Origin: a virus
Virus record (IMG/VR): IMGVR_UViG_3300046519_000446
Coordinates: 1-63,039 of that record
Length of the DNA: 63,039 nt
Direction: 5' to 3' (one strand)
Shown: piece by piece, positions 5,174 to 30,986 of the stretch
Layout: the number at the start of each line of letters is the position of its first letter
Numbering within the stretch: position 1 is the first letter of the stretch
Position numbers and translations under genes: made by a program
The notes under the pieces: generated by a model
Told to the model about the DNA's origin: nothing
The model's database searches: none
The model's input: only the letters and a program-made list of their open reading frames with translations

Positions 5174-5241
5174 CCCCCTAACCACCCCCAACGCGGCACT
5201 AACCGATTGACCCCCGCCCCTCTCCGCCCCACCTGTGGCGG

Positions 5242-5511
5242 ATGAAGCCCCAAGACCTGACCATCGAAGACTGCCGGTCGGCGCGCCGCAGCGTGACCCT
5301 CTGGTGCGAGGGGCGGTGTCCTGGCCGGGATCTTGACCTGTCCAGGCTCGAACGCTGGGCCGATCGCAAGCTTCTCGACCTCATGCGGAAGGGGTTGTTC
5401 GTCTGTTCGAGGTGCGGCCAACCTGCAGCCTTCGTGTCGGTCTCGGCTCACCTGATCGCGGATCCGATCCTGAAATGGAAAGTCGGTGACGACGCCCTGC
5501 CTGATGCCTAA
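5242..5511 (+). CDS. Hypothetical protein with zinc-knuckle-like Cys pair
   Basis: The protein has 89 residues with a CSRCG pair near residue 55 and two earlier Cys (WCEGRC), suggesting a small metal-binding fold. It ends tail to tail with the dioxygenase gene, the stop codons overlapping by four bases (CTAA). Function unknown. Confidence 0.55.
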   Translation: MKPQDLTIEDCRSARRSVTLWCEGRCPGRDLDLSRLERWADRKLLDLMRKGLFVCSRCGQPAAFVSVSAHLIADPILKWKVGDDALPDA

Positions 5512-6287
5512 GCCGCGATCGGCACCGGCGCCCGCGCCTCTCCCGTCAGCGGCGTGTAGTACTCGCAGCCTTCAAAGAAATAGTGCGTCACCTGGCTAAG
5601 CCGGGTTTGCGCGCGGTCCCGATGAGGTGAGCCGCCGTGCATCAGGTTGGCGTCCCAAATCAGGGCTTGCCCTACCTTCGGGGTGAAGTGCTGGGCCTGG
5701 GCGCCGTAGCGCGAGCGCTGGTCGCCCCAGGCTTCCTCTAGCAGGTGATAGTGCTCGTAGGGGTAGCCTGGGCTTGCCAGCGGCAGACCCAGGGTCTCCG
5801 GCGTGATCACAGGCCACTTATGAGATCCTGGATAGTAGGCCAGCGGGCCTGCCTCGGCGCTGATGTCCTCCAGGCCTAGCCAGACGCCACACATGAAGCG
5901 ATGCGGCTTGGCGCTGAAGTGCACGAGATCGACGTGCGCGGCCTGCTCGCTGCCGGCCAGGAAGTTGAGGGTCTGGAACGGGAAGGCCTGGCGCCCGTAG
6001 ATCTTGCTCAACAGGTCGGTCACGGCAGCGTTCGTCGCTATGGCCTTGATGTCGGCTTGAAGGCTCCATGCGTCGGAGCAGCGCATATCGGCCTTGCCGC
6101 CCGCCTCCCAGGTCTTGCGATCCAGGTTGGCGTCGAGAAAGTGGCGGATGGCCCCGGCGCGTTCGGCGATGGCATCGTCAGGGAACTCGATCACCGCGAA
6201 ACCGTGGCGGCGAAGGCTACGACTCACAGCCCAGGCGTTGGGCGGTTTGGTTGGAAAGTCTATGCAATTGGAGGTATAATTGGTCAT
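5508..6287 (-). CDS. Phytanoyl-CoA dioxygenase (PhyH)-like 2OG-Fe(II) oxygenase
   Basis: The protein has 259 residues and fits the PhyH family of non-haem iron dioxygenases, which hydroxylate small molecules using 2-oxoglutarate. The iron triad is visible: HVD at residues 118-120 and the distal His in NLMHGGS at about 217; Arg229 in TRLSQVTHYF would bind 2-oxoglutarate. GPLAYYPGSHKWP is also typical. The gene is head to head with the methyltransferase at 6286, their start codons sharing bases, so each promoter must lie inside the other gene. Such enzymes are usual in secondary or glycan metabolism rather than in virions. Substrate unknown. Confidence 0.85.
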   Translation of the reverse strand: MTNYTSNCIDFPTKPPNAWAVSRSLRRHGFAVIEFPDDAIAERAGAIRHFLDANLDRKTWEAGGKADMRCSDAWSLQADIKAIATNAAVTDLLSKIYGRQAFPFQTLNFLAGSEQAAHVDLVHFSAKPHRFMCGVWLGLEDISAEAGPLAYYPGSHKWPVITPETLGLPLASPGYPYEHYHLLEEAWGDQRSRYGAQAQHFTPKVGQALIWDANLMHGGSPHRDRAQTRLSQVTHYFFEGCEYYTPLTGEARAPVPIAA

Positions 6288-7422
6288 GGATGGTTATGTA
6301 GATGCCTTGGGCGCCGATCGCATCGAAGGATGGTCCATACCGGCCGCCGACCTTTCCGTCTGGGTCAACGGCGAAGAGGTTGGAAAGCCGCGCCCCACGG
6401 AGCTCCGCGCCGATGCCGACGCCGCCGGCCATCGTGGGGCGCGGGGCTTCTTCTTTCGCCCCACAAGATACCTGCGAGAGGGCAGCAATACGATTGAGGT
6501 GAGGGCCTCTCGCACAACGCTGCCAGGCGCGAAGACGGTGATCGATTTCCAGCCGCGCGCGATCGTGGATGATCACTGGTCGGAACAATACTCGCACGGC
6601 GAGGCGGTGATTTCCCGCTGGTGGCAATCAGATCAGATCATCCGCCACGTCAATGCCGTGGTTTGCGACGAGCCCCTAAATGGTCTGTCCGCTGGCCTCT
6701 ATCGGCAAATGCAGAGGCACGGTGTTCAGGCCCGGCGCGCGGTCTCGGTGGGCTGCGGCCATGGCGAGAAGGAACTGACGCTTCTGCAGCGCGGACTTGT
6801 AGACCATTTCGAGCTATACGATCTCTCGCGCGTCGCGATCGAGCGTGGCAGGGCGATGGCGCAAGCGGCCGGCGTGGCGGATCGCATGACCTTCCACCAG
6901 GCAGACGCCTTCACGGTGTGTGACCATTTTGACCTGGTGTTCTGGAACAACGCCTTGCACCACATGCCGAATGTCCACGACGCTCTGTCTTGGTCCCGCG
7001 AGCGCCTGAGGAAGGGCGGCGTCCTGGCGATGGATGACTATATCGGTCCGTCACGAATGCAGTTCGGGCCAGATTTTCTGGATTTCAGCACGCGCTTTCG
7101 CCGTTCGCTCCCGCCAAAGCGCATGGACAATCCTTGGGCGCCTGGCCAGGTCATGCCAACGCAGGTCGAGAGCATGGATCTAGACGCGCTGATCTACCTG
7201 GACCCATCGGAAGCGGTGGATTCCGCGAACATACTGCCGGCCCTGGCTCAGTTCTTCCCCAACGCTGAAGTCACCCCGACCGGCGGCGCGATCTATCACC
7301 TCGCGCTCAATGACATTCTGCACAACCTGACCGAGGCCGAGGTTCGGACGGGGCTTGAATGGGACGACAGCGCCAGGCGCGACGGCATGAACCAGTACGC
7401 CGTTGCGCTCGCTGTGGTCTAG
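6286..7422 (+). CDS. Class I SAM-dependent methyltransferase with N-terminal beta-sandwich domain
   Basis: The 378-residue product has two parts. Residues up to about 85 form a GW-containing beta-rich domain of a kind seen in proteins for surface polysaccharide synthesis. The rest is a Rossmann methyltransferase with motif I SVGCGHGEKE near residue 155, an acidic YDLS after strand 2, QADAF, and DLVFWNNALHHM as motif IV. The start is either ATG 6286 or TTG 6280; a GGAGG at 6270-6274 serves both. Its stop overlaps that of the minus-strand gene at 7419 (shared CTAG). It probably modifies a sugar or lipid together with the adjacent dioxygenase; this is inference from the pairing. Confidence 0.8.
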   Translation: MDGYVDALGADRIEGWSIPAADLSVWVNGEEVGKPRPTELRADADAAGHRGARGFFFRPTRYLREGSNTIEVRASRTTLPGAKTVIDFQPRAIVDDHWSEQYSHGEAVISRWWQSDQIIRHVNAVVCDEPLNGLSAGLYRQMQRHGVQARRAVSVGCGHGEKELTLLQRGLVDHFELYDLSRVAIERGRAMAQAAGVADRMTFHQADAFTVCDHFDLVFWNNALHHMPNVHDALSWSRERLRKGGVLAMDDYIGPSRMQFGPDFLDFSTRFRRSLPPKRMDNPWAPGQVMPTQVESMDLDALIYLDPSEAVDSANILPALAQFFPNAEVTPTGGAIYHLALNDILHNLTEAEVRTGLEWDDSARRDGMNQYAVALAVV

Positions 7423-7694
7423 GCGTCGAGGAGCGCGAAAGCGCGGCCTACAAGGAGCGTGGTTCCAACAGTGCCGATGCGCTCCTTGATGAGCGCGATT
7501 TCTTCCGCCTTCAAATCGACCTCGCCGCCGGCCTTGATCTTCAGCCAGACATCGAACCGCTGCGCTTTGCTGGCACTGTTCGCGCGCTCGTCGGGCGCGT
7601 CGGCCAGCAAGGCCTGGGCGCAGGCCTCGCCCAGCTTGAGGTCGGTCGGCTTGTCGTCTTGGCCCAAAATCGGGCTATCAAAATTGATCTTCAT
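7419..7694 (-). CDS. Hypothetical phage protein downstream of tail fibre
   Basis: The protein has 91 residues, a soluble protein with helices (KAEEIALIKERIG) and no recognised domain. It lies 9 bases after the tail fibre gene on the same strand, at the end of the late transcription unit, and converges with the methyltransferase gene. Small proteins in this position often serve fibre assembly; nothing in the sequence proves that. Confidence 0.6.
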   Translation of the reverse strand: MKINFDSPILGQDDKPTDLKLGEACAQALLADAPDERANSASKAQRFDVWLKIKAGGEVDLKAEEIALIKERIGTVGTTLLVGRAFALLDA

Positions 7695-7703
7695 GGGGAC
7701 TCC

Positions 7704-9731
7704 TTAAGCCGTGGTCATGATCTTGCGGGTGTTGCCCGCCGTGTCCTTGATGGTGACGTAGCCGTTCGAGGCGGTGTCGCCGCCCGCGGTGTAGATGCCA
7801 AACCAGACGTCGGTCGGCATCTTGAAGGTTGTGGCGAGTACCTGAAGCGTCCCACCGCCCTGGACGCCGGTTCCGCCGCTGCCGATGATCCGGGCATCGT
7901 AGTCGTTGCCGTTGCCCGACGTGTTGAAGTCGATCAGGGCTGACCCGACTGCGGTCTTGGAACCCAGTTCTAGGCCAGCGGCGGTGCTGGAAATCTGCAC
8001 GTTGCCGTTCACATCGACCTTGAAGCCCGGGCTGATGAAGGCCCCGTTCGTCGCGGTGACGCCCAGAAGGTCAATTCCCTTACTGACCGTTTTTTGTGTG
8101 CCAAAGCTAGTTCCGAACACCGTGCTTCCGGCGTAAAGCGGGTCCGCTCCGTTCACGTTGGTGATCAGGAACCCATAGGTGAAACCGACGTGGGGGCCAT
8201 AGGTCCCGGTCGAGCCAGTAACGGCGGCCTGGGCGCCCACCCATACAGCGGCATCAAGATCAGCGCCGCGCACCGACATACAGCCGATCGCCGCGACGCA
8301 GCTCATATAGCGCGAGGAACTCCCCGTCGCCGTGAACAGGTTAAACTCGTTTGACAGGTTGGTAAGGTTGACGGCGCCAGCATTAGCAAAGGCCGCCGCC
8401 CCCAGCCCGAAGAACTGACCTTTCGATCCAGCGCCAAGGTTCGTGCCGCCGTCATCATGCTGAACGACATTGAGGGCCTGGATGGCGGCATAGTTTGGTT
8501 GGGTGTTGCCGGCCTTGGTTGCGGCATTGTTCAGCAGGGCGACGGTCAACGCATTGCGGCCACCGCCGGCCGCCGCGCCGCCGAAATAGTGGCGGATCCG
8601 CACGCCGACGCTGAAGTCCGAGCCCACATCTCGATCGTCGGACGAGACAAAGAACTCGTACCCGCTCGTGAAGCTGGAGAAGACCCCGGCCCCAGGCGTG
8701 ACCGTCCCGGTCATGCTCTTGATCCAGAATCGCGTCTTCTCGTCCGCGCCGCCCTTATGGCCCTCGACAGCAGCGCCGGGCTCTAGACCAGTCGAGAACT
8801 TGCTCGCCCCCGTAAACAGCGCCGCTGGATCCATGACCAGCGTCTTGCCGGCCCCTAGGGTGAACGGCGTGTTGACGTCGTAGCTGCCGCCAGCGACAAA
8901 GATCTGGCTGTTGGCGTTGTTGGCCAGGTACAGGGCCGTGATGTCCGCCGTGCCGTCCGCGCCGTACTCAGTGGGACCGACGCGTTCGCGTAGCTTGGAC
9001 TGGACGTCGCGGTTGATTGCGCCCGTGCCAGAGGCGATGAATGTGGCGTTGGAGGCTAGGTCAGCGCCCAGGGTGATGCGTGCGGCGGCGGCGGTCGTGT
9101 CGTCCAGCACCGTCTGCATGAAGGAGGAGACGCCGAGATTGGTCTGGTTGATCTCCAGGGTGGTCCTGGCCGCCGCCGCATCGGCATCGTCCAGAACCGT
9201 CCCCATGAACGGGGTGATGCCCAGATCCGCCCTTGCCTCGGGCGCTGTCTCGTCTAGGAGGAAACTCTCCATGAAGGTGCTCACCGGAACGGTGATCCCC
9301 GCAACACCACGCGCCCCGGTCAGTTCAATGGTGATGTCGCAGTCGCCGAGCGTGACGGTGACGTCACCATCGCAGCCGCACGCCTGGGAACCGACGGGCA
9401 TCACCCTAAACAGGCCGCCGGTCAGTTTCTCGGTCAGGTCCACCGAGGTCAGGAAGACGTCATACTGCAATAGGCTCGGCTGCGTGACGTCATCACTCTC
9501 AGGCAGGTCGTCGATGTCCGCCGCGACGATGCGAACCTCAAGGCTCTGGCCATCGAACTCGATGAACGAGCCGGCCGCCGTGGGCGTGCTGGTGACGGTA
9601 AACAGGGACGCCCCTCCCCTGCCAGCGTAGATCACCATGCTGGCCGAATAGCCGGAGACGTCGAGGGCGGACGGAAAGGCGTAAGCGTACGCCAAGTCAG
9701 CGCCTCGGGCGGCGGAGAGAGCGCAGGACAT
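7704..9731 (-). CDS. Tail fibre/tailspike-like protein
   Basis: The protein has 675 residues. An N-terminal domain with a CGCDG Cys cluster is followed, at about 165-230, by three repeats of the type TVLDDADAAAARTTL, common in phage fibre stems. A segment resembling the start of a pectate-lyase-like beta helix (EYGADGTADITALYLANN) comes next, then a long Gly/Ala/Thr-rich beta region. This is the expected host-recognition protein. It is last but one in the late operon, after the lysis genes and a terminator. No intramolecular chaperone domain is visible at its C-terminus. Confidence 0.75.
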   Translation of the reverse strand: MSCALSAARGADLAYAYAFPSALDVSGYSASMVIYAGRGGASLFTVTSTPTAAGSFIEFDGQSLEVRIVAADIDDLPESDDVTQPSLLQYDVFLTSVDLTEKLTGGLFRVMPVGSQACGCDGDVTVTLGDCDITIELTGARGVAGITVPVSTFMESFLLDETAPEARADLGITPFMGTVLDDADAAAARTTLEINQTNLGVSSFMQTVLDDTTAAAARITLGADLASNATFIASGTGAINRDVQSKLRERVGPTEYGADGTADITALYLANNANSQIFVAGGSYDVNTPFTLGAGKTLVMDPAALFTGASKFSTGLEPGAAVEGHKGGADEKTRFWIKSMTGTVTPGAGVFSSFTSGYEFFVSSDDRDVGSDFSVGVRIRHYFGGAAAGGGRNALTVALLNNAATKAGNTQPNYAAIQALNVVQHDDGGTNLGAGSKGQFFGLGAAAFANAGAVNLTNLSNEFNLFTATGSSSRYMSCVAAIGCMSVRGADLDAAVWVGAQAAVTGSTGTYGPHVGFTYGFLITNVNGADPLYAGSTVFGTSFGTQKTVSKGIDLLGVTATNGAFISPGFKVDVNGNVQISSTAAGLELGSKTAVGSALIDFNTSGNGNDYDARIIGSGGTGVQGGGTLQVLATTFKMPTDVWFGIYTAGGDTASNGYVTIKDTAGNTRKIMTTA

Positions 9732-9746
9732 GGGCGAGGCCTCATA

Positions 9747-9777
9747 GAAAAGCCCCGCGCCGTGAGGCTGCGGGGCT
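9747..9777 (-). terminator. Rho-independent terminator after the lysis genes
   Basis: An 8-bp GC stem (9751-9758 with 9770-9777; AGCCCCGC pairs with GCGGGGCT) has an 11-base loop and is followed on the minus strand by TTTTC. It separates the spanin genes from the tail fibre gene, which may therefore rely on read-through or its own promoter. Confidence 0.7.
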
Positions 9778-9860
9778 GAGGGGGTGTGGGGCGGTGTCGA
9801 GGTTGGCGCTCAAGCCTGGTCAGGCGAGCGGATGTGCGGAGATCGGCCGGGGGAGCCCGG

Positions 9861-10229
9861 CTAACGCTTGCCGCGTATTCGGTCGATGAGGCTTGGCGGC
9901 TTGGCGGCTTTGTTGGCGGCGCCGATTAGGTCGACCAGCCCCAGGGCGCGGCGCCGCTCGGCCGCGGTCGTCTCTGCCTGGCGGACGGAGAACTTCATCA
10001 GCGGCTTGATGTAGATGTCCCACATGGCCCTGCGCTCCTCGGCCGCCGTGGGGGCAAGCGGTACGACGCTCGGCGGCGGAAGCGTCGGCTTAACGGGGTC
10101 AGGTTCCTGGCTGGTCAGGATGGCGTTCAGCTTGATCTGATGGCCGCTGGCTACCGTCGAGCACCCGGTCAATGCCAGCGCTCCAGATAGAAAGATCGCC
10201 GTCCATGTCGGTTGAGGCGTCAAGCGCAT
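9861..10229 (-). CDS. Outer-membrane lipoprotein, o-spanin (Rz1-like)
   Basis: From ATG 10229, preceded by AGGAG at good spacing, the product has 122 residues and begins with a lipoprotein signal ending in LALTGCS, with the lipidated Cys at about residue 23. A Pro-rich stretch (KPTLPPPSVVPL) follows, as in Rz1 proteins, then a basic helical tail. The gene starts inside the i-spanin gene in another frame and extends past its end. Lipoprotein plus overlapping inner-membrane partner is the classical two-component spanin layout used to fuse the membranes at lysis. Confidence 0.75.
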   Translation of the reverse strand: MRLTPQPTWTAIFLSGALALTGCSTVASGHQIKLNAILTSQEPDPVKPTLPPPSVVPLAPTAAEERRAMWDIYIKPLMKFSVRQAETTAAERRRALGLVDLIGAANKAAKPPSLIDRIRGKR

Positions 10230-10458
10230 CGGTGATCTCCTGAGCTTTGTGGTGGATGCGGCCAGTGTCAGCCGCCACATCGGCGGTCATGCTGGCCGTA
10301 GCGGAGTCGATGGCGCCCTGAACTTCCGCTGTCGCGGCGGCCCGCTCGGCGTGCTGGCGTCGGTGGAACGGATCGAAGTTCCAGAGCATGAAGCCGACGA
10401 TCAGGACGGCCACGCCGACAGCGATCCACTCCAGCAGGCTCAGGACGGGGATCTTCAT
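10099..10458 (-). CDS. Inner-membrane i-spanin (Rz-like)
   Basis: The protein has 119 residues with an N-terminal membrane segment at about 8-26 (LEWIAVGVAVLIVGFMLW) and a periplasmic part with Ala-rich helix. The membrane anchor plus embedded lipoprotein gene identify it as the i-spanin. Its start overlaps the stop of the 44-residue membrane protein by four bases (ATGA at 10455-10458). Confidence 0.7.
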   Translation of the reverse strand: MKIPVLSLLEWIAVGVAVLIVGFMLWNFDPFHRRQHAERAAATAEVQGAIDSATASMTADVAADTGRIHHKAQEITDALDASTDMDGDLSIWSAGIDRVLDGSQRPSDQAERHPDQPGT

Positions 10459-10589
10459 CGGACGAACCTCCGGAGCGTGTGGCGCAGGGCCAGGACGATG
10501 AGGCCGGCGACGATGGCAAGCGTCAGGACGGCGCCCGTAGCGCCGCCCGCTACGCCGGCCCAGAAGGCGGTCACAGCGTTTTCAGCCAT
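10455..10589 (-). CDS. Small single-span membrane protein in lysis cassette (holin-like candidate)
   Basis: The product has 44 residues, MAENAVTAFW then a Gly/Ala-rich and Leu/Ile/Val-rich membrane helix (AVLTLAIVAGLIVLAL), ending with a basic tail RHTLRRFVR. It starts inside the end of the endolysin gene (19-base overlap) and its stop overlaps the i-spanin start. Position between endolysin and spanin, one membrane span and a basic C-terminus make it a holin or antiholin candidate, though the two-span protein at 12185 competes for that role. Confidence 0.6.
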   Translation of the reverse strand: MAENAVTAFWAGVAGGATGAVLTLAIVAGLIVLALRHTLRRFVR

Positions 10590-10990
10590 GCGGCGACGGA
10601 GAAGCTGGGGCAGGCCTTGGCAACGCCAGGCCACTCATTGTGGCCCCGGACAACGATGCCCGGATACTTCGCTCGGTAGTCGCCGACGATGCGCTTCAGC
10701 GCCGCCTTCTGGGCTTCGTTGCGGGTGTCCTTGGCCTTCCCGGCCTTGTCTGTCCCGCCGACGTAGCAGACCCCGATGTTGCCGGTGTTGGCGCCCCCGA
10801 CATGAGCCCCCTTGATCGTGTCGGCCAGGCGGCGGTGAGCGACGCCGTCGAGGGTGACGATCTGGTGGTAGGACTCCTGGCCAAACTTGGCGATGTCCCA
10901 GCGGGCGATCTCGTCGGCAGGAACGTCTCGGCCTTCCGGCGTAGCGGCGCAGTGGATGGTCAGAAACTTCACGGTTCCGAGAGCGGCCAT
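10571..10990 (-). CDS. Endolysin: N-acetylmuramoyl-L-alanine amidase (T7 lysozyme-like, Amidase_2)
   Basis: The protein has 139 residues. The start KFLTIHCAATPEG provides the first zinc His (HCAAT), SYHQIVTLDG and the IGVCYVGG strand match T7 lysozyme-type amidases, and the C-terminal GHNEWPGVAKACPSF supplies the second zinc His and the Cys ligand. It cleaves the amide bond between N-acetylmuramate and L-alanine in the periplasm. There is no signal peptide, so release would need a holin. Confidence 0.9.
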   Translation of the reverse strand: MAALGTVKFLTIHCAATPEGRDVPADEIARWDIAKFGQESYHQIVTLDGVAHRRLADTIKGAHVGGANTGNIGVCYVGGTDKAGKAKDTRNEAQKAALKRIVGDYRAKYPGIVVRGHNEWPGVAKACPSFSVAAWLKTL

Positions 10991-11012
10991 GGGATCTCCT
11001 GTGGCGTTTTGG

Positions 11013-12188
11013 CTAGGCGGCGATCAGGCGCTCGATGCGGGCCAGCGAGCAGGTATGGCGCTCGACCTCGCCATCCAGGCGATGGAACGTGACCGCCTCG
11101 ATGTCGCGTTTGGACCGGTAGCCCGATCCGTGGCTGTAGGCGTCGGGGGCGGCGAGCGTGCGCAGGTACTCGACCGTGCAGCCGGTGTATTCCTTGATGT
11201 CCTTGTGGTGGACATGTCCAACGAACCAGACGGCGTGTTCAGCTTGGCCCCACCATTCGCGGGCGTCGTTGGCCATGATCAGCGGCAGGTCTTTGCCTTT
11301 TGCGCCGTCGCCGTGACAGGTGCCGATCAGGTTCTTTCCGAAGAGGTGATACCAGTACGGGTTGGGCGAGGTGACGATCTGAACGCGTGGCTCTTGTTCA
11401 TAAAGCGCCTCCAGGACCAGGGCGAGGTGCAGGGCCGTCTCTACGTCATGGTTGCCCGGGTCCACCCGAACGATGACCTGTTCGTGCTTCTCAAGGAGGC
11501 GGTCGATCTGGTACCGCTTAACTCGGATCGAGACCCTCACGACCTCGCTGTGGCGCCCGTGAACGTCGAGCGCATGGCCGCTAGCCGGGGTGCGGTTCTT
11601 GCCGTTGTCGGCGTGCGTGGAATCGCCCTTGTCGTTGAACAGGGCGTACTTGGAGTGCGGTGTCGAGGCGACAAGGCGGTCGATAGCGGCGCGATTGATG
11701 CGCTCGAACTCGGGGAGATCAAAGTGTGATCCCGTCTCGGCCTTCCAGGAATAGAGACCGGCGTGGGGATCGCCGACCGGGTAAACCGTCAGAAGATCTT
11801 CGTCGCAGTCAGCCGGTGCGACGATTGGGGCGGCGGGGACGATGTCGTCGATCAGACCGGCAACCGTGGCCCGCATGAGTTCGATAGCGGCCTCGTAGTT
11901 GGGCGATTGACGTTCCCAGGTACGCTCCACGGCGCCCGTTGCGCCCCGCTGAACGGTCACCTTTCCCATGCGATAGCCGGGGGCGACGCCGTCTTTGAAG
12001 TGGCCCGGCGCGTAACCCTGGGCTGCCGCGCGTTCCTGCAGTCGTTTGATCGCTGCCGAGATGCCGCTGTGTGCTGCGCCGAGGTGGGCGGCGACCTTCC
12101 TGGCCGAGCCGTGCTCGTTGATCAGGTCGACGTACTTGGCTTCGGTCGGGGTGGCCCATTCCTTCAGCTTCTCGTCGAGATGGCTCAT
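11013..12188 (-). CDS. Metallophosphoesterase with N-terminal helix-turn-helix
   Basis: The protein has 391 residues. Residues 1-60 contain a HTH-like helix pair (GSARKVAAHLGAAHSGISAAIKRLQ). The rest carries calcineurin-like phosphoesterase motifs in order: GDPHAG, an NDKGD motif, GNHDVE, CHGD and GHVHH. Such HTH-phosphoesterase proteins occur in several podoviruses between internal-virion and lysis genes; their target is unknown. The start overlaps the next upstream gene by four bases. Confidence 0.75.
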   Translation of the reverse strand: MSHLDEKLKEWATPTEAKYVDLINEHGSARKVAAHLGAAHSGISAAIKRLQERAAAQGYAPGHFKDGVAPGYRMGKVTVQRGATGAVERTWERQSPNYEAAIELMRATVAGLIDDIVPAAPIVAPADCDEDLLTVYPVGDPHAGLYSWKAETGSHFDLPEFERINRAAIDRLVASTPHSKYALFNDKGDSTHADNGKNRTPASGHALDVHGRHSEVVRVSIRVKRYQIDRLLEKHEQVIVRVDPGNHDVETALHLALVLEALYEQEPRVQIVTSPNPYWYHLFGKNLIGTCHGDGAKGKDLPLIMANDAREWWGQAEHAVWFVGHVHHKDIKEYTGCTVEYLRTLAAPDAYSHGSGYRSKRDIEAVTFHRLDGEVERHTCSLARIERLIAA

Positions 12189-22410: not shown

Positions 22411-23370
22411 CTACAGAAGGTCAGCGACGACTGCACCGCCAAGCTGATTCCTACACACCAAGGTCTTCTCCATGGTCATCAGGAAGCGCTCGTTGTCGCC
22501 GGTCTTGGCCAGCGGCGTGGACTTCAGACCGTCCAGCGTCGCCACCGCCCACATCTTCGGGTCGATGAACAGCGCATCACGGCTGAGCGCCGCGTACGGG
22601 TGCGGGATCAGGGTGATGGCCCCGAAGTCCGACACGTAGACGTCGGCAGCGGCGGTGATGGTCGCCAGGGCGTTGCCGCGCACTTCGCTGCGGATGTCGG
22701 CGATACCGGTGAACGCCGAGAACTGCTGCTTGTGCGTGCCGTCCAGATAGCACTGGCTCAGCATGGCGCCGTTGGAGAACGCCGTGGCCAGCACGCCCTT
22801 GACCAGAGTCTCGGTGAAGGTGCGCTGGGTGCCGTTGGTGGCCGCGGCGACGGTGCCGCCGGAGAAGCCGCCGTTCGAGCCGCCCGAACCGCGCGAGACG
22901 TTGGTGGTGAGCCACGCCAGAGCGCCGGCCGACTTGCGGGTGGTGGCGCCCGATTCCGCGACAGAGGCGTAGTTGCCGACGAAGCGCTTTTCAGCGTCAC
23001 GGCGGATTTCCAGGCCCTTCAGCATCTTCTGGCGAGCCAGTTCGCTGTCGCGGCCAGCCTTGTCGACCACTTCCTGGGTGCGCGAGACGCCGCCCTTTTT
23101 GGTGAAGATCTGGCAGCGGTTGCCGACGCGGGTCGTCAGGTTGGCGGCGTCCAGCGAGGAGACGTCATCCCCTTCCAGGGCGGCGTTGGTCTCGTCGGCG
23201 GCGGCCAGGTTCTCAGTCTGCCATTCATGGAAAATGTTGGTGGCCTTGGCGGTGCCGATGTTGCTCGACAGCGGGGTCGACTCCGGAGCGACGCGATAGA
23301 TCACGTTCTCCAGGTCTTCGCGGATGCCGATGTTGTTGACGGAGGTGACGGTGTTCGTGGGAGCGGTCAT
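22411..23370 (-). CDS. Major capsid protein (DUF5309/SU10-like)
   Basis: The protein has 319 residues. TNTVTSVNNIGIREDLENVIYRVAPESTPL, here recognised in pieces, and FHEWQTENLAA are the N-terminal signature of the SU10/DUF5309 major capsid family; the rest (TRVGNRCQIFTKKGGVSRTQ, LSRDALFIDPKMWAVA) also fits an HK97-like shell protein. It follows the scaffold gene with a four-base overlap (23367-23370). Confidence 0.85.
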   Translation of the reverse strand: MTAPTNTVTSVNNIGIREDLENVIYRVAPESTPLSSNIGTAKATNIFHEWQTENLAAADETNAALEGDDVSSLDAANLTTRVGNRCQIFTKKGGVSRTQEVVDKAGRDSELARQKMLKGLEIRRDAEKRFVGNYASVAESGATTRKSAGALAWLTTNVSRGSGGSNGGFSGGTVAAATNGTQRTFTETLVKGVLATAFSNGAMLSQCYLDGTHKQQFSAFTGIADIRSEVRGNALATITAAADVYVSDFGAITLIPHPYAALSRDALFIDPKMWAVATLDGLKSTPLAKTGDNERFLMTMEKTLVCRNQLGGAVVADLL

Positions 23371-24443
23371 TGGCCGCGTCCTTTCTGGCCCATGGCCAAA
23401 ATGAGGGCGATCCCGTCCTCTTGGCTGTGCGTCTGCGACAGCCGGTTGGAAAGACGGGCGACCTCGCGATTTGCGGGATTGGCCGCCTGCGCCGGAGCCG
23501 CCACGGGAGCGACGGTACGGACGGGCGGCGTGACAGGCTTCGGAGCGGGGGTGGCGGCCTTGGCCTTGGCGGCGGCCTGCGCCTGGTCCCAGAGCATCGC
23601 CTTGTGGGCGACGATCAGTTCCTTGGCGGAGGCGTTGCCGATGGCTTCGGGCGGAAGGCCGGACTGGACGATATACTCGCCCAGGGCCTTCTGATTGTCA
23701 GGCTTCAGCAGTTCCGGGGCGTGTTCCTGCAGGTCCGCCACGACTTCGCGCACGAAGGCTTGACGGGCGATCTGCTCGGCTTCGGTCTGGGATGCTTTGA
23801 GCTTCTGGAGGGTGGCTTGCGCGCGGTCCCTGGCCAAAACGGCCTTGTTGTACGCCAGCAGGTCTTCCGCGGCGACAGCAGGGTCTTCCTGGTTTTGGAT
23901 GCGATCGACCCACCCATCCCAATCGATGTTTTCCCACTCGGTTTTGAACATCTCGACCGCTTGGGGCACGAAGGTGCTGAGTTGTTCGGCCAGGGCTTTG
24001 ACACCGTTGACCTCGGACTCGGCTTGCTTTCGTACTTCGGCGGCCTGCGCCTTGGCCTGGGTGACGACGGTCTCCCGCTTGTCCTCCTGCGCACGCACTA
24101 TGGCTTGCAGTTCAGGGTTCAAAGCGGCGAACTTCGCCTTGGCCTCAGCATCCCACCATTGCGGAGCGTCCACCGGGTCGGCCGCAGCCTCCGGAGGGGG
24201 TTCCACAGTTTCGCCGTCGCCGGGCTGTTCAGCCTCGCCAGCGCCATCGTCCGTGGTGGCGGACTCTGGTTGCTCTTCCTCGCCACCCGTCTCGGGCTCA
24301 GCGGCGGCCTCGGCGGGCGCCTGCTCAGCCTCAACGGCGGCGGGTTGTTCGATCTTGTCGGGTTCGGCAGTGGGCGCGGTCATCAGCGCAACAGCCGCGT
24401 CGATGCTCAGCGGGCCGGTATCGGCCGCAGCTTCGGTGGTCAT
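23367..24443 (-). CDS. Capsid scaffolding protein
   Basis: The protein has 358 residues. An acidic, Pro/Glu/Ala-rich N-terminal third is followed by long helices with coiled-coil potential (RETVVTQAKAQAAEVRKQAE) and a basic C-terminal segment that would contact the capsid protein. Composition and position directly before the capsid gene identify it as the scaffold. Confidence 0.8.
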   Translation of the reverse strand: MTTEAAADTGPLSIDAAVALMTAPTAEPDKIEQPAAVEAEQAPAEAAAEPETGGEEEQPESATTDDGAGEAEQPGDGETVEPPPEAAADPVDAPQWWDAEAKAKFAALNPELQAIVRAQEDKRETVVTQAKAQAAEVRKQAESEVNGVKALAEQLSTFVPQAVEMFKTEWENIDWDGWVDRIQNQEDPAVAAEDLLAYNKAVLARDRAQATLQKLKASQTEAEQIARQAFVREVVADLQEHAPELLKPDNQKALGEYIVQSGLPPEAIGNASAKELIVAHKAMLWDQAQAAAKAKAATPAPKPVTPPVRTVAPVAAPAQAANPANREVARLSNRLSQTHSQEDGIALILAMGQKGRGQ

Positions 24444-24470: not shown

Positions 24471-24746
24471 CTAGCGCCGGTCTTGATCGGCGGGCGAAAG
24501 GAGCGCGGCCATGTCGCGCTGGTAGGCGACGGCCTGGCCGTTAGCGACAGTCTCGACGAGGGCCTTGCGGACCATCTCGATGGCCTTGAGGGCGTCGTAG
24601 TACTTCTCGCGGGTGGCCACGGCATCGACGCCGGTGGCGACCAGCTTCTCGACGAGGAGCGCCTTCATCTGGTCGAAGGCCCATTGGGTCTCGATCAGTT
24701 CAGCGCCAGCGCGATGGCCCCTGTGGATGGCTTGGTCTTCGGTCAT
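24471..24746 (-). CDS. Hypothetical protein between portal and scaffold
   Basis: The protein has 91 residues, helical (FDQMKALLVEKLVA, YDALKAIEMVRKALVE), similar in size and place to small proteins found between portal and scaffold in related phages. Its start overlaps the portal stop by four bases. Role unknown. Confidence 0.6.
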   Translation of the reverse strand: MTEDQAIHRGHRAGAELIETQWAFDQMKALLVEKLVATGVDAVATREKYYDALKAIEMVRKALVETVANGQAVAYQRDMAALLSPADQDRR

Positions 24747-26890
24747 CCCGGCTCTCCGCCCGGCTCAACATCAGACGCGACGTGCGTGTCTTCCTCGCTC
24801 GCGACATCATGGGAGCCGGCCATCGCGTCGATCGCCTGACCGCGCGCCTTCAGCGCCAGCTCAGCCTCAAGCTCCTCGCGCTTTAGCTGGAGCTCCGCGG
24901 CGATTTGGGCTTCCCGCTGGTCCAACTCGCGATGCTTGATCGCAACTTCGTTCTCATGCTTCTGTTGCTGGAGGGCGAAATTCGCCTCTTGCTCTTGCTG
25001 CTTGAGGTGGAAAGTTGCCAGCGCCTGGGCCTGTTCCATTTCGAGACGGGCTTGGTCGGCCTGCGCCTGTTGGGCCATTTGCTCACGCTGCAGGTCCATC
25101 TTGGCCTGAGCCTCCAACACTCTCGGATCCGGCGGAGGCGGTCCTGGTGGTGGCGCGTCCTTCGGGTCGGAGAAGAAGGCCTCAGGGTTCTTGATCCCAG
25201 CCTTCTCGGCGCGCTTGACGGCCAGGGCGTAGACGTTGGACGCCTTGACCAGGGGGCCTTCCATCCCGCCCTGGGCGCTGACGATCGCCGCCTGGTCACT
25301 GGCGACGCGATCGAGAACCATCATGTCGTGCTCGCGGCCCGACGCCCCAAGGCCAACCTCGATGGTCATGTCGTTGCGCACGGCCCACGACGACGGATTG
25401 ACCGGCACCCACTTATTGCGGAGCTTGACGACCTTGGCCTGCATCGCATGCTGGCGGAGGAGGTCGTGGACCCCCATGAACAGGTCTTTGATCCCGGTCT
25501 CGGCGAAGGTCCGGGCGATCATGCGAATCCGCTTTTGGGCCATCCCCATCAGGACCATGGCGCCTTTGGCGGTGTCGTGCAGCGTGTCCGGGGCCAGGCC
25601 TTGGGCGTTGCGGACCACGCCGGAGCGCTTTTCCGCCTCGGTGGACCAGTATTCTAGCCGCGCCTGGGCATCGAAGCCAAGGCCACCGGCCTGAAGCGGG
25701 GTGACGGCCGGCCCCTTGGTCCGCACCGGAGCGCCGGGGACATTGTTCAGGTAATCCGAGACCGTCCACTCGTTGGCGTAGGTCATGTCGATCTGGTTGC
25801 GCTGATTGAGCGCGAAATACCCGCTGTCGAGGTCCATCCGCGTCAGGGCGGTCTTGATCTTCTGGACCTCCATCAGCTTGTCGGCGATGGACTCGCCGTA
25901 GAACCGGTGGGTGACGAGGAACGGCGTGATCGCCGAGAGCTGGATCGCATTGACCTTCTGCTTGCGCAGCAGCTTGGCGCTCTCGCCATTCCCGCCCGTG
26001 AGCACCTGATAGAGCGTGGCGTAGGCGTTCGGCGGCTCCATGACGCGCACGTAGTGCTCGACCACCTCCACCTGGCGCATACCGCGGTTGGCGTCGCCGC
26101 CATAGCCCTGGCTGGTCTCTGCCACCGTGTCGCGGGCTTGGGCGATCGCATCGTTCTGCGGCGCGCTGTAGGCCGGAAGATCGTCGACTAGATCTGCGTC
26201 GATCCCCTGGGCGATGAGATCCTGGGCGCGAGGCCGTGACCGGGTGGCGCAGTAGGTCGATTGGCGCAGCCAGACGGTGTCGGCCGAGACCGTGATATCC
26301 TCTGGCGCCACGACATCAACCACGGCCCGGCCCTGGGGCGGTTTGGTCAGCGTGAAGTCATAGAGCGGCTCGCCCTGCCCGTCCCATTCGGGAGACTGGA
26401 CGACGTCGGAGATCTTACCGCCCTCCTCGGCCAGCAGCATCTCGATGGCCGTCTTGCCCTTGAACGTCTCGGGCGGGCAGGCCTTCTCCTCCCACCACCA
26501 CTTAAAGACGCCGGTCTTGGCCTGGAACGCGTCCTTGAACGCGGACGTTATGGTCAGGAAGCCGGGGTTCTCGTTGAAGATTACGTGGCGGACGTAATCG
26601 GTCTCCTGTTGGGCCGCATCCTCGTCCTCCTCACCGATCGGGGAGAAGGCCACCACGTCATCACCGCCCGTAAAGATCTCCACGACATCCGGAAGGATCG
26701 TCTCGATAGCATCGGCCACGTCCAGCGAAACAGCCTTGGACCGGCCAGGCAGCGTCGGAGCGTCGGGCATATAGCCCTTGATGTAGTTCAGCGCCCGCTC
26801 GCGCTCTTGGGTCAGCTCGCTGTCGAGGTCGAAGCCGATCGAACGGCGCTGCTCGCTCTGGACGATGGCCAGCAGATCGTCATCGGTCAT
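24743..26890 (-). CDS. Portal protein (P22-like)
   Basis: The protein has 715 residues. The N-terminus (ERALNYIKGYMPDAPTLPGRSKAVSLDVADAIETILP read in parts) and FFAL-type core, the VTHRFYGESIADKLMEVQKIKTALTR helix region (in parts) and APVRTKGPAVTPLQ match the P22 portal family. The last 150 residues form a Gln/Glu-rich coiled coil (barrel-like helix). Portals form the dodecameric DNA channel. The start lies 41 bases after the FAD protein stop. Confidence 0.85.
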   Translation of the reverse strand: MTDDDLLAIVQSEQRRSIGFDLDSELTQERERALNYIKGYMPDAPTLPGRSKAVSLDVADAIETILPDVVEIFTGGDDVVAFSPIGEEDEDAAQQETDYVRHVIFNENPGFLTITSAFKDAFQAKTGVFKWWWEEKACPPETFKGKTAIEMLLAEEGGKISDVVQSPEWDGQGEPLYDFTLTKPPQGRAVVDVVAPEDITVSADTVWLRQSTYCATRSRPRAQDLIAQGIDADLVDDLPAYSAPQNDAIAQARDTVAETSQGYGGDANRGMRQVEVVEHYVRVMEPPNAYATLYQVLTGGNGESAKLLRKQKVNAIQLSAITPFLVTHRFYGESIADKLMEVQKIKTALTRMDLDSGYFALNQRNQIDMTYANEWTVSDYLNNVPGAPVRTKGPAVTPLQAGGLGFDAQARLEYWSTEAEKRSGVVRNAQGLAPDTLHDTAKGAMVLMGMAQKRIRMIARTFAETGIKDLFMGVHDLLRQHAMQAKVVKLRNKWVPVNPSSWAVRNDMTIEVGLGASGREHDMMVLDRVASDQAAIVSAQGGMEGPLVKASNVYALAVKRAEKAGIKNPEAFFSDPKDAPPPGPPPPDPRVLEAQAKMDLQREQMAQQAQADQARLEMEQAQALATFHLKQQEQEANFALQQQKHENEVAIKHRELDQREAQIAAELQLKREELEAELALKARGQAIDAMAGSHDVASEEDTHVASDVEPGGEPG

Positions 26891-26931: not shown

Positions 26932-29082
26932 CTAGGGCCTGCTCGGCGCGAGCACGATCTTGGTCCCCGACGCCGTCACCTGGCCGTTGGCGTCGTTGCA
27001 GTCGAGCTCGACATAGTCGGCGCTCGGAACGCCGGCCCGAAGCTTGTAGCGCCCTAAATACTCCCATCGGCCGCCGTTGCTGTCGTAAACCCCGCCGACT
27101 TGCTGGCTAATCCGCTGAGCCGTCGTGCCTTGCTCGGTGACGACGTTCACCAGAAGATTGGTCGCCCTGCCTTGGCCGCCGGCCGCAACCGCCTCGTCCG
27201 CCGAATACTCAAGGTACACATCGTACCAGCCCGCGCCGTAGACATTCAGCGCGTCTTTCCACTTGTGGCCAGCCACGTTTGCGGCGAGGACGGTATCGTA
27301 GGATGGCGTCGTCCCGCCGATCCCGCCGTAGCGGGACGATCCAGTGACCCAGTTCGCGCCCGTCTTGGTGATCGTTCCGTGACCATAGGTTCCTGAGCTG
27401 TCGCTGACCGTCCCGTCCTCGATGTCCCAGGGGTCGCAGATCGCGGCGACCTGGCTGTATTGAACGCTCTGGACGGCGAGGCTGTGCTTGACCGCCAGGG
27501 CGGCGACGGCGCCGGCCGCCGATCCGATCATCATCATAGATGGCGCGACGCGGATGCTGCGCCAAATGACGTGGCTGACCGAGGGCTGGGAGGCGCAGAC
27601 CAGGTTGGTGCACTCGGCGACCTTCGGGAACAGGACCCGCATCGACACGCGGAAGCCGTAGCCCGCGCCCAGGGCGGTCAGTACTGCGCCCTCGACATAG
27701 GTCAGGCCGCCCACGACAAGACGACGCACGATGTGGCCGTCGATATCGTAGAACCCAAAGGCAATTGGGTCGGTGAGGCCGTTGGCCAGGACTGCGTGCG
27801 TCTGGTTCTGGACAAAAGCGCCGACCGCGCGCGCGCCTTCTCGTTCGTAGAACTGCGGCGACCAGCCGCCGGTCTCCGGCAGTTGGTAGGCCGAGAACCC
27901 ATAGTTGTTGAACGCCGTGCGGATCGTGGCCGGGATGCGGGCGTCGGACTCGAACATCAGCCAGTAGATCCAGCCCAAGGCATAGTTCTTGGCGTTGGCG
28001 CGGATCTCGGCCCGGCGGGCGATGCTGGCCGTCACGTACTCGACCAGCTCGCTGGTGATGGGATAGTTCAGCGACAGCGGTCCGCCGCTGTTGCCATCGA
28101 CATAGGTGATCGGCGTACCCATCGCCGTGCCGTTGCCGAAGTTCAGGTTGTAGAACTGGATGATCCGCGTCAGGCCGTTGACGGCGTCACCGTAATAGGT
28201 CGGATTGGCGGCGAAGGCGCGGCCCAGCAACTCATAGCGCGAGGCCTGATAGTCGGTGGGTGGCCCCGCGGTGAAGTACGTGGCCCAGTCGATCTTCTCG
28301 CCGGCAACGCTGGTCAGGAACAGCCGGAAGCCAAAGCCCATGACCCGGCCGTCAGCCGCGCCGACCGTGCCGGCCGCGCCCGCATCGACGCCGAACAGGA
28401 GACCGGACCCAGAAACGCCGGGGGTCACGTACGGATCGACGTCGGTCGTCCCGTCCCACTTCGTCGCGGCGAGAATGCCGTTGCTGGTCTCGCCATAGGT
28501 GGCGTTGGCTTCCCGGCCGACCGAGAACGAGGTCAAGGCCCGCTGATTGACGTCGCCGCAGGCCGTGCCCTCGACGACCACGGTTGGGTAGTAGCGGCGC
28601 CGCACGCCGTTCGTGTCCAACAGCAGCGACGTGATGGTCGTGCCGGTCTTCTGGAGCGACACCAGTTGCGTGCTGGGCAACAGGGTGATGTTCGGATGGG
28701 TCAGCAGCTCGACGAACGCCCGCTTGGAGAACTGCGGGCGCATCTGCCCCTCGTACTTCCACCAGTGGGCGAAGTTGCGGCGCAGGGTCTGCTTGGCCAC
28801 CGAGGTCAGGAACCGCTTGGTCTGGCCGCCGACGACGGCGCAGGACTTGGAGCCCTTCACGTCCTGTTGGTTCAGGCCGTAGCCGCTGGACATCCAGCCG
28901 AACCACGCCTCATTGCTGGTCAGCAGGACAACCATGCCGGCGTCGGCCGCTTGGCGCGCGGCGAAGCAACCCGCCTCGGTCGCGCCAACGACGATGACGT
29001 CGTAATGGTCCTTGAAGGGCATAACCTTGCGCTTGAGCGCGCCGCCAGCCTTCTCGATGCCGACTTCGGTTACCGCGCTCAC
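26932..29082 (-). CDS. FAD-dependent oxidoreductase with C-terminal golvesin-like domain
   Basis: The protein has 716 residues. Residues 27-55 hold the FAD Rossmann motif (DVIVVGATEAGCFAARQAADAG), then SSGYGLNQQD and VVGGQTKRF, all typical of the PF12831 FAD oxidoreductases; about 168-200 reads EGTACGDV, then SVGREANATYGET, also canonical. The last 140 residues (SSRYGGIGGTTPSYD, YDVYLEYSADEA, WEYLGRYKLRAGVPSADYVEL) look like a golvesin/xanthan-lyase-type beta domain. In bacteria such proteins act on exported compounds or sugars. Here it lies between terminase and portal, in the packaging module. Substrate and virion association are unknown. Confidence 0.8.
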   Translation of the reverse strand: MSAVTEVGIEKAGGALKRKVMPFKDHYDVIVVGATEAGCFAARQAADAGMVVLLTSNEAWFGWMSSGYGLNQQDVKGSKSCAVVGGQTKRFLTSVAKQTLRRNFAHWWKYEGQMRPQFSKRAFVELLTHPNITLLPSTQLVSLQKTGTTITSLLLDTNGVRRRYYPTVVVEGTACGDVNQRALTSFSVGREANATYGETSNGILAATKWDGTTDVDPYVTPGVSGSGLLFGVDAGAAGTVGAADGRVMGFGFRLFLTSVAGEKIDWATYFTAGPPTDYQASRYELLGRAFAANPTYYGDAVNGLTRIIQFYNLNFGNGTAMGTPITYVDGNSGGPLSLNYPITSELVEYVTASIARRAEIRANAKNYALGWIYWLMFESDARIPATIRTAFNNYGFSAYQLPETGGWSPQFYEREGARAVGAFVQNQTHAVLANGLTDPIAFGFYDIDGHIVRRLVVGGLTYVEGAVLTALGAGYGFRVSMRVLFPKVAECTNLVCASQPSVSHVIWRSIRVAPSMMMIGSAAGAVAALAVKHSLAVQSVQYSQVAAICDPWDIEDGTVSDSSGTYGHGTITKTGANWVTGSSRYGGIGGTTPSYDTVLAANVAGHKWKDALNVYGAGWYDVYLEYSADEAVAAGGQGRATNLLVNVVTEQGTTAQRISQQVGGVYDSNGGRWEYLGRYKLRAGVPSADYVELDCNDANGQVTASGTKIVLAPSRP

Positions 29083-29354
29083 GACTTGACCCAGGCGCTG
29101 GTGGCCGTGATGTCGCCATTGGCGTCACGGGTATAGGTCTGCGTCCAAGTGTTGGTCCCGTCCGTGCGGCTTTCGGACAGCAGGTTGCCGGAACCGTCGC
29201 GGTCGCTGGTGTTGCTCGCCAGGCTATCGAAGTTGGCCGGGAGGGCTGAGCCGTCAGAGGCAGTGCCGGCGGAGGCTGTGACGGGCAACGGCGTTTGCAG
29301 GCTGACCGGCACATCGTTGAGGCCGTCCGACGACCGATAGCTGGTATGCGCCAT
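29079..29354 (-). CDS. Small hypothetical protein upstream of FAD oxidoreductase
   Basis: The protein has 91 residues, Ser/Thr/Asn/Asp-rich, beta-like (DRDGSGNLLSESRTDGTNTW, TYTRDANGDITATSAW). It overlaps the FAD gene start by four bases and may be coupled to it. Similar Ser/Thr-rich small proteins occur as virion decoration; no proof here. Confidence 0.55.
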   Translation of the reverse strand: MAHTSYRSSDGLNDVPVSLQTPLPVTASAGTASDGSALPANFDSLASNTSDRDGSGNLLSESRTDGTNTWTQTYTRDANGDITATSAWVKS

Positions 29355-29432
29355 GGAACGGCTCCGATATGGACGCGCAGACGCACGCCAGAGCCCGTGA
29401 AGGCTGGCGGTGTCGCGGATGTGGGTGGCGCT

Positions 29433-30986
29433 CTAGGCCGTGGCGAAGTTCGGGATGACCAGCTTGTCCTGGCCGCTATTCTCGCTGACGGGCTCGGCGA
29501 AGGTCAGGACGACCGCGTCCCACTCGTCGGGCGAGCGGATCTTGCGGACCACCCGCATGTGCTCTTTGCTTTCGAGGACCAATTGCGACGTTGTGGGGTG
29601 GTAGCTGTAGCCAGGGCCGCAGGCGTCGGCCTGCAGGACGTCAGAGTCTGGAATATCCGCCCCGCCTTCGTCCCTCAGCCAATCGTTGGATAGATCCCAC
29701 ATCTCATCACGGCGGTACTTCGGCCCAGCCATCGGCTTGCCGTCTTTGTCGCGCTTGGGTGGATAAACGGGAGACGAACCGAAATTCACCACACGGCAGA
29801 TTTTCTGGTACTTCTCACCCCACCCGGTGAGGATATCGAAGATCCCGCCCCCGCCGCCCACGTCAATGAACACCCGCGCCGGTTTATCCCGGTCGATGAT
29901 GTCCTTCAGTTTCGCTGCGGCCCGAACGTTGTCGATCGGCGAAGCGTCGCTCTCGACCTTCTCCAGCTTGCGACCGCGGCGCCAGGCGATGGCAAAGCGG
30001 TCCTTGCCCTCGCGCTTAGGGTCCACGCCGATGATCAGCGGCCCCACGCCCTTGAGATCGGCCTTGCGAGCCTTCAGCACATGCTCGGGCTTGATGAAGC
30101 TGTCGTGGCCTGTCGTTTGGAACGCCTCAGCCGCCGTGGCCGGGTATTCCTGCTTGAAGAGCTGCGGATCCTTCAGTTCAGCTATCTTGGCCCGTCGCCA
30201 GCACATCTGATCCAGGTCAAGCTCGTGAAGCTCGGCGTACTCCCACTCTTCCTCGTCCATGACGAAGTCGTCAGGTGCGGGGCGACGGTACTCATCTTGC
30301 CAAAACCACGGCACGAAGATGGCCTGATAGTCGCCTATCCCCGCCTCGGCCTGCTGCCAGCGCTCGTGGAACTCGCCGCCGACCCCGTTGGCTGTGCTCT
30401 CCAGGACGATCTCTGTTCCAGGGAGGTCTGGAACGGCCTGCACCACACCCGCAAAGTGGGAAGCGGCATTAGGCCAGAAGCCAACCTCGGAACCGTGGAG
30501 CAGCAGGATGGTCTTTGACCGCCCGACAGCTCGCGCGCCAGCCGTGGCCACCGCGTACCCGCTATCCAGGGCGGCGAATAGCAACTCCTTGGCGTTGTCG
30601 TTCTTGGTCGAGGGCGCGATCGGGTTGTGATCGTTGTAGCGCTTCGCCATTGCGAAGAGGTTGTCTGTCGCCGGCTGCTCGTGCGTCAGGATGAAGACGC
30701 CGACGCCCTGGTGCATCGTGGCCCGGTGATAGAACCTAGCGCTGATGTAGGTAGAGACGCCCTGTTGCCGTCCCTTGAGGATCAACGCCCGAACACGACC
30801 GGTCCTGGCCTTCTGATCTTCTAGCTTGGCGTGAACGTGCCGCTGCGCCTGGTTCAGCAGCAACGGACCGATGCGGCCGTCCTTTCCCTTCAGCTTCATG
30901 CACCGTTCAAAGTGCAACAGCGGCTGGTCTCGGAAGGTGCGCAACGTCTCGAGCGCAAAGGCCCGAGCGTCTACGCCCTCAGCCAC
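29433..30986 (-). CDS. terL: Terminase large subunit
   Basis: The protein has 517 residues. Walker A KGRQQGVST is at 71-79, the Walker B-type strand ILLLHGSEVGFW near 155-170, TEIVLESTANG follows as motif III, and the nuclease domain starts with IIGVDPKREGKDRFAI, whose Asp would bind metal. It is the ATP-driven DNA packaging motor and headful or site-specific nuclease. Overlaps the small subunit by eight bases. Confidence 0.9.
   Translation of the reverse strand: MAEGVDARAFALETLRTFRDQPLLHFERCMKLKGKDGRIGPLLLNQAQRHVHAKLEDQKARTGRVRALILKGRQQGVSTYISARFYHRATMHQGVGVFILTHEQPATDNLFAMAKRYNDHNPIAPSTKNDNAKELLFAALDSGYAVATAGARAVGRSKTILLLHGSEVGFWPNAASHFAGVVQAVPDLPGTEIVLESTANGVGGEFHERWQQAEAGIGDYQAIFVPWFWQDEYRRPAPDDFVMDEEEWEYAELHELDLDQMCWRRAKIAELKDPQLFKQEYPATAAEAFQTTGHDSFIKPEHVLKARKADLKGVGPLIIGVDPKREGKDRFAIAWRRGRKLEKVESDASPIDNVRAAAKLKDIIDRDKPARVFIDVGGGGGIFDILTGWGEKYQKICRVVNFGSSPVYPPKRDKDGKPMAGPKYRRDEMWDLSNDWLRDEGGADIPDSDVLQADACGPGYSYHPTTSQLVLESKEHMRVVRKIRSPDEWDAVVLTFAEPVSENSGQDKLVIPNFATA

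Follow-up and report, generated by a model that had tools for sequence, protein, structure and literature searches.

A predicted FAD-dependent oxidoreductase with a xanthan-lyase-type domain in an exchange slot between the terminase and portal genes of a virus with an SU10-type head module

Introduction

Phage receptor-binding and depolymerase-type virion proteins are generally trimeric and often have a beta-helical body. To our knowledge, the virion enzymes that act on sugar coats are hydrolases, lyases and esterases, and we know of no phage particle that oxidises the host polysaccharide in place of hydrolysis or lysis. Klebsiella phage tail fibres of the SGNH-hydrolase kind have a hydrolase-type body, and in a close relative of the virus described here a relative of these fibres stands in the slot that our virus fills with an FAD-dependent oxidoreductase (the FAD protein), to which their body has no sequence relation. 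The terminal domain of Paenibacillus xanthan lyase 6f2p (residues 901–1040) has the same fold as the C-terminal domain of the FAD protein; in 6f2p it sits on a polysaccharide lyase, whereas in our protein it sits on a flavoenzyme and is predicted to bind glycan. According to a review, 6f2p has an extra module at its terminus, so far unclassified, that binds xanthan (PMC10881899). In another study, CBM6-CBM35-CBM36_like_2 domains, of a type shared with golvesin and another xanthan lyase, bound glycans on an array (PMC9166713).

Bacterial PF12831 oxidoreductases (from Planctomycetota, Verrucomicrobiota, Bacteroidota, Actinomycetota and Acidobacteriota; L024–L091) share the FAD domain over its length, and in 29 of them the C-terminus is extended by a region whose profile finds the C-terminal domain of the FAD protein; they mostly have an export-type N-terminus and lie outside phage head modules, whereas the FAD protein has no such N-terminus. 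Proteins of Rhizobium phages, annotated only as hypothetical or as FAD oxidoreductase, resemble it in the PF12831 domain, in placement between the genes for the terminase large subunit (TerL) and the capsid, and in having no apparent export signal, but they have a ConA-like lectin module at the N-terminus and lack the C-terminal xanthan-lyase-type domain. An FAD-dependent oxidoreductase is mentioned for phages of cluster N, part of a T4-like supercluster (PMC10783043), and our literature search, which covered few subscription journals and preprints, found no virion FAD oxidoreductase. SU10-type podoviruses share the portal, scaffold and capsid types of our virus, but their TerL and portal genes are mostly adjacent, whereas here slot genes lie between them. 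We describe this slot in one IMG/VR virus record of 63,039 bases (the window) and argue that the FAD protein is most likely a virion accessory protein binding, and perhaps oxidising, a host surface glycan.

Results

The FAD gene lies within an SU10-type head module

The minus strand of the window carries an SU10-type head module in the following order:

29433–30986, minus strand: TerL, 517 aa (phrog_2, E 6.2e-30)
29079–29354, minus strand: small coupled gene, 91 aa (ORF, comparison with L095)
26932–29082, minus strand: FAD oxidoreductase gene, 716 aa (ORF; PF12831, 186.2 bits; AlphaFold model)
24743–26890, minus strand: SU10-type portal protein, 715 aa (PF23899, 516 bits; phrog_1216)
23367–24443, minus strand: head scaffolding protein (phrog_3927, E 1.6e-16)
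22411–23370, minus strand: SU10-type major capsid protein (PF17236, 274.7 bits)

The FAD gene, which begins with GTG and has no internal stop codon, is flanked by the terminase and portal genes, as the initial annotation had placed it. The coupling to a small Ser/Thr-rich protein described there was also borne out, since the start of the FAD gene overlaps the end of the 91-aa gene by four bases (GTGA), the arrangement of translational coupling, and about 30% of the small product is Ser/Thr (counted by eye). GC3 of the FAD gene is 0.87, against 0.76–0.88 in the neighbouring genes. No relatives of the 91-aa gene, or of the corresponding small gene of L096, were found in named phages. At the end of the record (61804–63039, plus strand) lies an integrase-like gene whose PF00589 match (22–24 bits) is under the cut-off of 27.1, hinting at a temperate phage.

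A flavin domain is joined to a xanthan-lyase/golvesin-type domain

Three features were located in the FAD protein:

28969–28986, minus strand: Rossmann dinucleotide-binding motif GATEAG, residues 33–38 (translation, alignment)
27445–29001, minus strand: FAD_oxidored (PF12831) domain, residues 28–546 (profile match, fold neighbours)
26956–27366, minus strand: C-terminal xanthan-lyase/golvesin-type beta domain, residues 573–709 (profile and fold match)

The PF12831 match (E 1.7e-54, 186.2 bits against a cut-off of 27) covers profile positions 1–413 of 416, which rules out a chance ORF and agrees with the earlier description of a full-length PF12831-type flavoenzyme. The FAD motif, here GATEAG, and the segments SSGYGLNQQD and SVGREANATYGE quoted in that description are all present in the translation. 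An AlphaFold monomer model built with 35 aligned sequences (the window and fetched loci) has a mean pLDDT of 81.4 and a pTM of 0.79 and shows a flavin fold, whose neighbours are GidA/MnmG, Thi4 and fumarate-reductase-like flavoproteins (Z 15–17). By sequence, the PDB gave Rossmann-region matches and no relative spanning the whole protein, and PHROGs held no matching family. Foldseek against viral models returned partial matches only, namely other flavoproteins and, over about 160 columns, tail-protein beta domains.

The top-ranked structural match of the whole model was its C-terminal part against 6f2p, in which residues 901–1040 superimpose on the domain with Z 17.7 and 2.2 Å over 136 residues at 28% identity. 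A profile of 29 bacterial C-termini, with zero viral members, also found this domain (E 1.5e-7) as its sole match in the window below E 1. Golvesin_C (PF25275) scored 25.6–26.7 bits, below the cut-off of 31.6, and the domain was therefore filed as golvesin-like and not as a Golvesin_C member. The golvesin-like domain of the initial annotation holds in fold and profile, but not at the Pfam threshold.

The body of the slot is exchanged among close relatives

Scanning with the window portal returned three records with portals 88–92% identical (L095, L096 and L097, of which the last two are 99.9% alike), and the FAD gene is absent from all three. The L095 slot encodes one product of 131 aa and one of 787 aa; the latter has an SGNH hydrolase domain (PF13472, 34.8 bits, cut-off 32.9), matches tail fibre family phrog_38670 (3.7e-53) and is related to Klebsiella phage tail fibres at 37–39% identity. 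The L096 and L097 slots contain a small gene of 91 aa and a larger product of 520 aa that matches LamG weakly (18.3 bits, cut-off 27.6). The first 27 residues of the small gene of the window are 93% identical to those of the 131-aa gene of L095, and the rest of the slot differs. Nucleotide identity between the window and L095 ends a few codons into the small gene and restarts at the stop codon of the large gene, giving these borders:

29275–29468, minus strand: 5′ border, the TerL end and the opening codons of the small gene, with 89% identity to L095
26891–26936, minus strand: 3′ border, the slot-gene stop codon and pre-portal leader, common to L095

The body of the slot is exchanged, among close relatives, for other fibre-type proteins: SGNH in L095, weakly LamG-like in L096 and L097. 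Since the slot proteins of the closest relatives are probably of the sugar-acting or sugar-binding kind, a particle-borne tool for the host sugar coat is probable. In L095 (4698–6121), next to a portal 92% identical to that of the window, the terminase frames are split over two overlapping ORFs and match no window protein by BLAST; as these frames differ from those of the window, the exchange there exceeded the slot.

To see the slot more widely, the best 80 of 354 portal relatives were examined. TerL was recognised upstream of the portal in 74 of these 80, and in 63 of the 74 the TerL–portal gap was at most 478 bases, without slot genes. A slot ORF of at least 200 aa was present in 10 of the 74, a count that includes two pairs of near copies, the doubtful L156, and L139 and L140, whose flagged frame is probably wrong (likely genes of 163 and 204 aa). 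The slot of L152 is occupied by a Gly-rich protein (44.7 bits) and that of L170 by small ORFs only. The 80 loci yielded no match to FAD, ConA or golvesin; the flavoenzyme is therefore one of several tenants and the rarest in this set. The initial annotation had held that absence from all related phages would speak for a recent insertion without a virion role: the gene is indeed absent from these 80, but the closest three relatives carry probable sugar-acting or sugar-binding proteins in its place.

Other contents of the region were also recorded. In L142 (1798–5605) the slot is filled by an SGNH-like protein (23.1 bits, under cut-off) together with two acyltransferase-3 genes on the opposite strand (60.5 and 71.7 bits), possibly a deacetylase/acetylase pairing. 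In L180 (309–5964) a 235-aa gene and a 1645-aa LamG-domain protein (44 bits) stand directly before an SU10-type portal, TerL being out of view. A search for prophages with the portal of the window found none at 1e-60 in 395 genomes of one class around L030, a search run without a positive control and therefore uninformative.

Homologues recur in structural modules of unrelated phages

Among 50,697 GenBank phage records, three encode FAD homologues (26–28% identity), all Rhizobium phages. The gene lies between TerL and portal in RHph_N3_19 and between portal and major head genes in RHph_Y55 and RHph_I72, and hence between TerL and capsid genes in all three. The TerL-to-capsid stretch makes up 17, 19 and 18% of the genome in N3_19, Y55 and I72 and 14% of the window, and the chance of four such placements is about 8e-4, or 5e-3 if Y55 and I72 are counted once.

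IMG/VR yielded 19 further records (L006, L016 and L211 being one). Selected ORFs of the neighbourhoods were scanned against families, and a head, tail or packaging gene above threshold was present in the fetched stretch of 13 of the 19 (L004, L010, L011, L012, L013, L014, L015, L016, L017, L018, L019, L021 and L224); L014 and L015 were counted because their ORF list near the gene is identical to that of a scanned record, rather than by a family scan of their own. Structural genes are several kilobases off in L008 and L009 and under cut-off in L020, and the ORFs scanned around L007, L215 and L217 included no structural neighbour. In total, 16 of the 22 other phage or viral records (3 GenBank, 19 IMG/VR) have head, tail or packaging genes in the same stretch as the FAD homologue.

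A copy 84% identical to the FAD protein (86% over 257 codons) is present in L004 with its first 299 residues, and it stands behind a portal of another family (phrog_332, about 62% to BPP-1 bbp21); comparison of the two sequences indicates that the FAD gene is transferred between unrelated phages. DNA identity begins at about residue 22 of the window protein, the N-terminal tails being different, as would be expected if the tail serves phage-specific attachment. In a BPP-1 relative (MW202722), a gene annotated as hyaluronidase-like follows shortly behind the portal gene. The synteny check proposed at the outset came out divided: homologues recur in structural modules of unrelated phages, but the FAD gene is missing from the best 80 of 354 portal relatives.

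Sugar-type modules accompany the flavin domain

An N-terminal module of about 260 residues is present in the Rhizobium phage proteins and in most IMG/VR members. Modelled from L016 (pLDDT 87.2), it has a ConA-like fold, with domain 4 of the arabinanase AbnA as best PDB match (Z 16.9), and its viral structure matches are mostly ConA/LamG proteins, one tail fibre included. Neurotoxin binding domains also appear among its PDB neighbours; they share the common ConA-like jelly roll, and nothing more was read into them. In the window, L007, L008 and L009 a golvesin-type C-terminus takes the place of this module, above the Pfam cut-off in the latter three and below it in the window, where no ConA module was found elsewhere. 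The sequence of L004 ends before the C-terminus, and neither the N-terminal nor the C-terminal module was found in L215. There (5093–12100) the FAD gene is flanked by two proteins whose N-termini (MPKFTTP...) are almost identical, as though different bodies had been attached to a common anchor.

Near TerL in L017 (2860–10143), a 2427-aa protein joins Ig-like, GH16 (56.8 bits) and ConA-like domains to an FAD oxidoreductase domain at its end, and its start is related to the small slot gene of L096 (45% over 64 residues, E 7e-16). Behind the FAD gene of L018 (2916–5496), the adjacent gene encodes a polysaccharide pyruvyl transferase (84.7 bits), and genes for a PEP-CTERM-motif protein (30.5 bits) and a DUF4054 phage protein also lie there.

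Bacterial relatives differ in export signal, and the window in conserved residues

Bacterial relatives of the FAD protein, 25–34% identical to it, were gathered through one peptide pattern and are a biased sample for that reason. An export-type N-terminus, defined as an 11-residue stretch with mean hydropathy of at least 1.8 before the flavin motif, was present in 58 of 69 bacterial rows, whereas the same measure, a crude one that reads from the preceding stop codon, gave 0.37 for the window and 0.55 for L004. Many of the bacterial N-termini are of the classical or twin-arginine type by eye. The simplest reading of these sequences would be that the bacterial enzymes act beyond the cytoplasm and that the phage protein leaves the cell as part of the particle.

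A quick tree built from 84 rows separated every phage row, together with plasmid row L022, from 66 of the 67 bacterial or plasmid rows (support 97–99); the branch of the window and L004 (2.41) was flagged as unsafe by the program. This tree does not discriminate between a single origin and multiple origins of the phage genes. L022 itself (7911–9659) is a related FAD oxidoreductase gene from a Rhizobium plasmid, with a VirA-like kinase gene on one side and the virB genes on the other.

Conservation was tabulated from the rows of the tree set, which omits L006, L014 and L015 (copies) and L063, L079 and L086 (partial); L021 was outside the table set, and L215, L217 and L224 were found later. Of the 49 positions that are conserved in 66 or all 67 of the bacterial rows, the window, counted by hand, keeps 38 and changes 11, including G63W, D171E, Y174A, E175C, A180Q, R417A and E513A. 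L004 has the same changes in the part covered by the alignment, and these are therefore not sequencing errors. The other phage copies keep E513 (15/15) and most other conserved residues, and 8 of the 15 have another residue in place of the last Rossmann glycine. Between the window and L004, dN/dS is 0.21 over 257 codons, indicating purifying selection. Loss of the FAD-binding residues had been named as a result that would count against the flavoenzyme; the Rossmann glycines (GATEAG) are kept, but with 11 of 49 near-invariant positions changed the activity may be altered or lost, and the altered centre may mean changed or lost chemistry.

Discussion

The initial annotation had offered two alternatives, a virion enzyme that attacks surface polysaccharide and a late metabolic gene. 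Synteny, module exchange, the fused lectin/CBM-type modules and the missing export signal favour the first. We propose that the FAD protein is a virion accessory of the receptor-binding/depolymerase kind, in which an FAD oxidoreductase, and not a hydrolase or lyase, would serve as catalytic body. The protein would fold with FAD in the host cytoplasm and, with its small partner, be mounted on the particle close to the portal or neck. Its C-terminal xanthan-lyase-type domain would then hold a host surface glycan and its flavin domain oxidise that glycan or a substituent on it, whereby the phage would be held at, or pass through, the sugar coat. We put the probability that the FAD protein is a virion-borne, glycan-directed flavoprotein still working as an enzyme in some form at roughly 0.55. 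Presence in the virion, glycan binding by this domain and FAD binding are predicted; catalysis and substrate are the least certain parts, and redox chemistry on a host glycan, taken alone, falls somewhat short of an even chance.

The chief rival, which we consider unlikely, is a pseudoenzyme: a protein descended from an FAD enzyme would be retained on the virion as a scaffold that binds glycan, its flavin body without catalysis or FAD binding and its lectin-type domain and surface doing the work. This would fit the window's changes at positions near-invariant in 67 bacterial rows, shared by L004 where covered, the replaced last Rossmann glycine of 8 of 15 other phage copies, and a slot that alternates with a protein looking lectin-like only (L096). 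Against it, GATEAG and 38 of 49 conserved positions are kept in the window, the other phage copies keep E513 throughout and most conserved residues, and a scaffold without activity would have no evident need for a flavin core so strongly conserved in so many lineages.

Less probable again is a late metabolic or lysogenic-conversion enzyme that acts inside the infected cell or on the glycans of a lysogen and is merely co-transcribed with the head genes. PF12831 relatives are mostly bacterial, one from Sphingobium adjoining a TonB receptor gene; conversion-type cargo can lie near such sites (the two acyltransferases of L142, the pyruvyl transferase of L018), and the window has its integrase-like gene, below cut-off. 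Such an enzyme is harder to reconcile with the same-strand, coupled position within the head operon, the direct exchange with a tail-fibre-type protein, the lectin-type and GH16 modules fused in relatives, an N-terminus without the export-type character of most bacterial kin, and the repeated placement in structural modules of unrelated phages. We infer that the virion-borne reading is better supported than this metabolic one. Recent acquisition of a bacterial gene that serves no purpose in the phage would account for its absence from the best 80 of 354 portal relatives, but is very improbable given GC3 like that of the neighbours, dN/dS of 0.21 against a phage copy, bacterial relatives only 25–34% identical, and sharp cassette borders with other large genes at the same place.

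Returning to the virion-borne, glycan-directed flavoprotein, its broadest form is a tentative one that we hold rather doubtful: several unrelated tailed-phage lineages, the window included, would carry an active particle flavin oxidoreductase that is aimed by lectin or xanthan-lyase-type modules and oxidises exopolysaccharide or capsule, the TerL–portal slot of the present SU10-like group being an exchange site for glycan-directed virion proteins. If true, a recurrent particle flavoenzyme would extend the virion enzymes for sugar coats to redox chemistry, PF12831, scarcely described in the searchable literature, where a single paper names it, would gain a biological setting, and candidate polysaccharide oxidases would be offered. 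In the SU10-like group, the content of the TerL–portal slot may predict the host coat that a phage handles.
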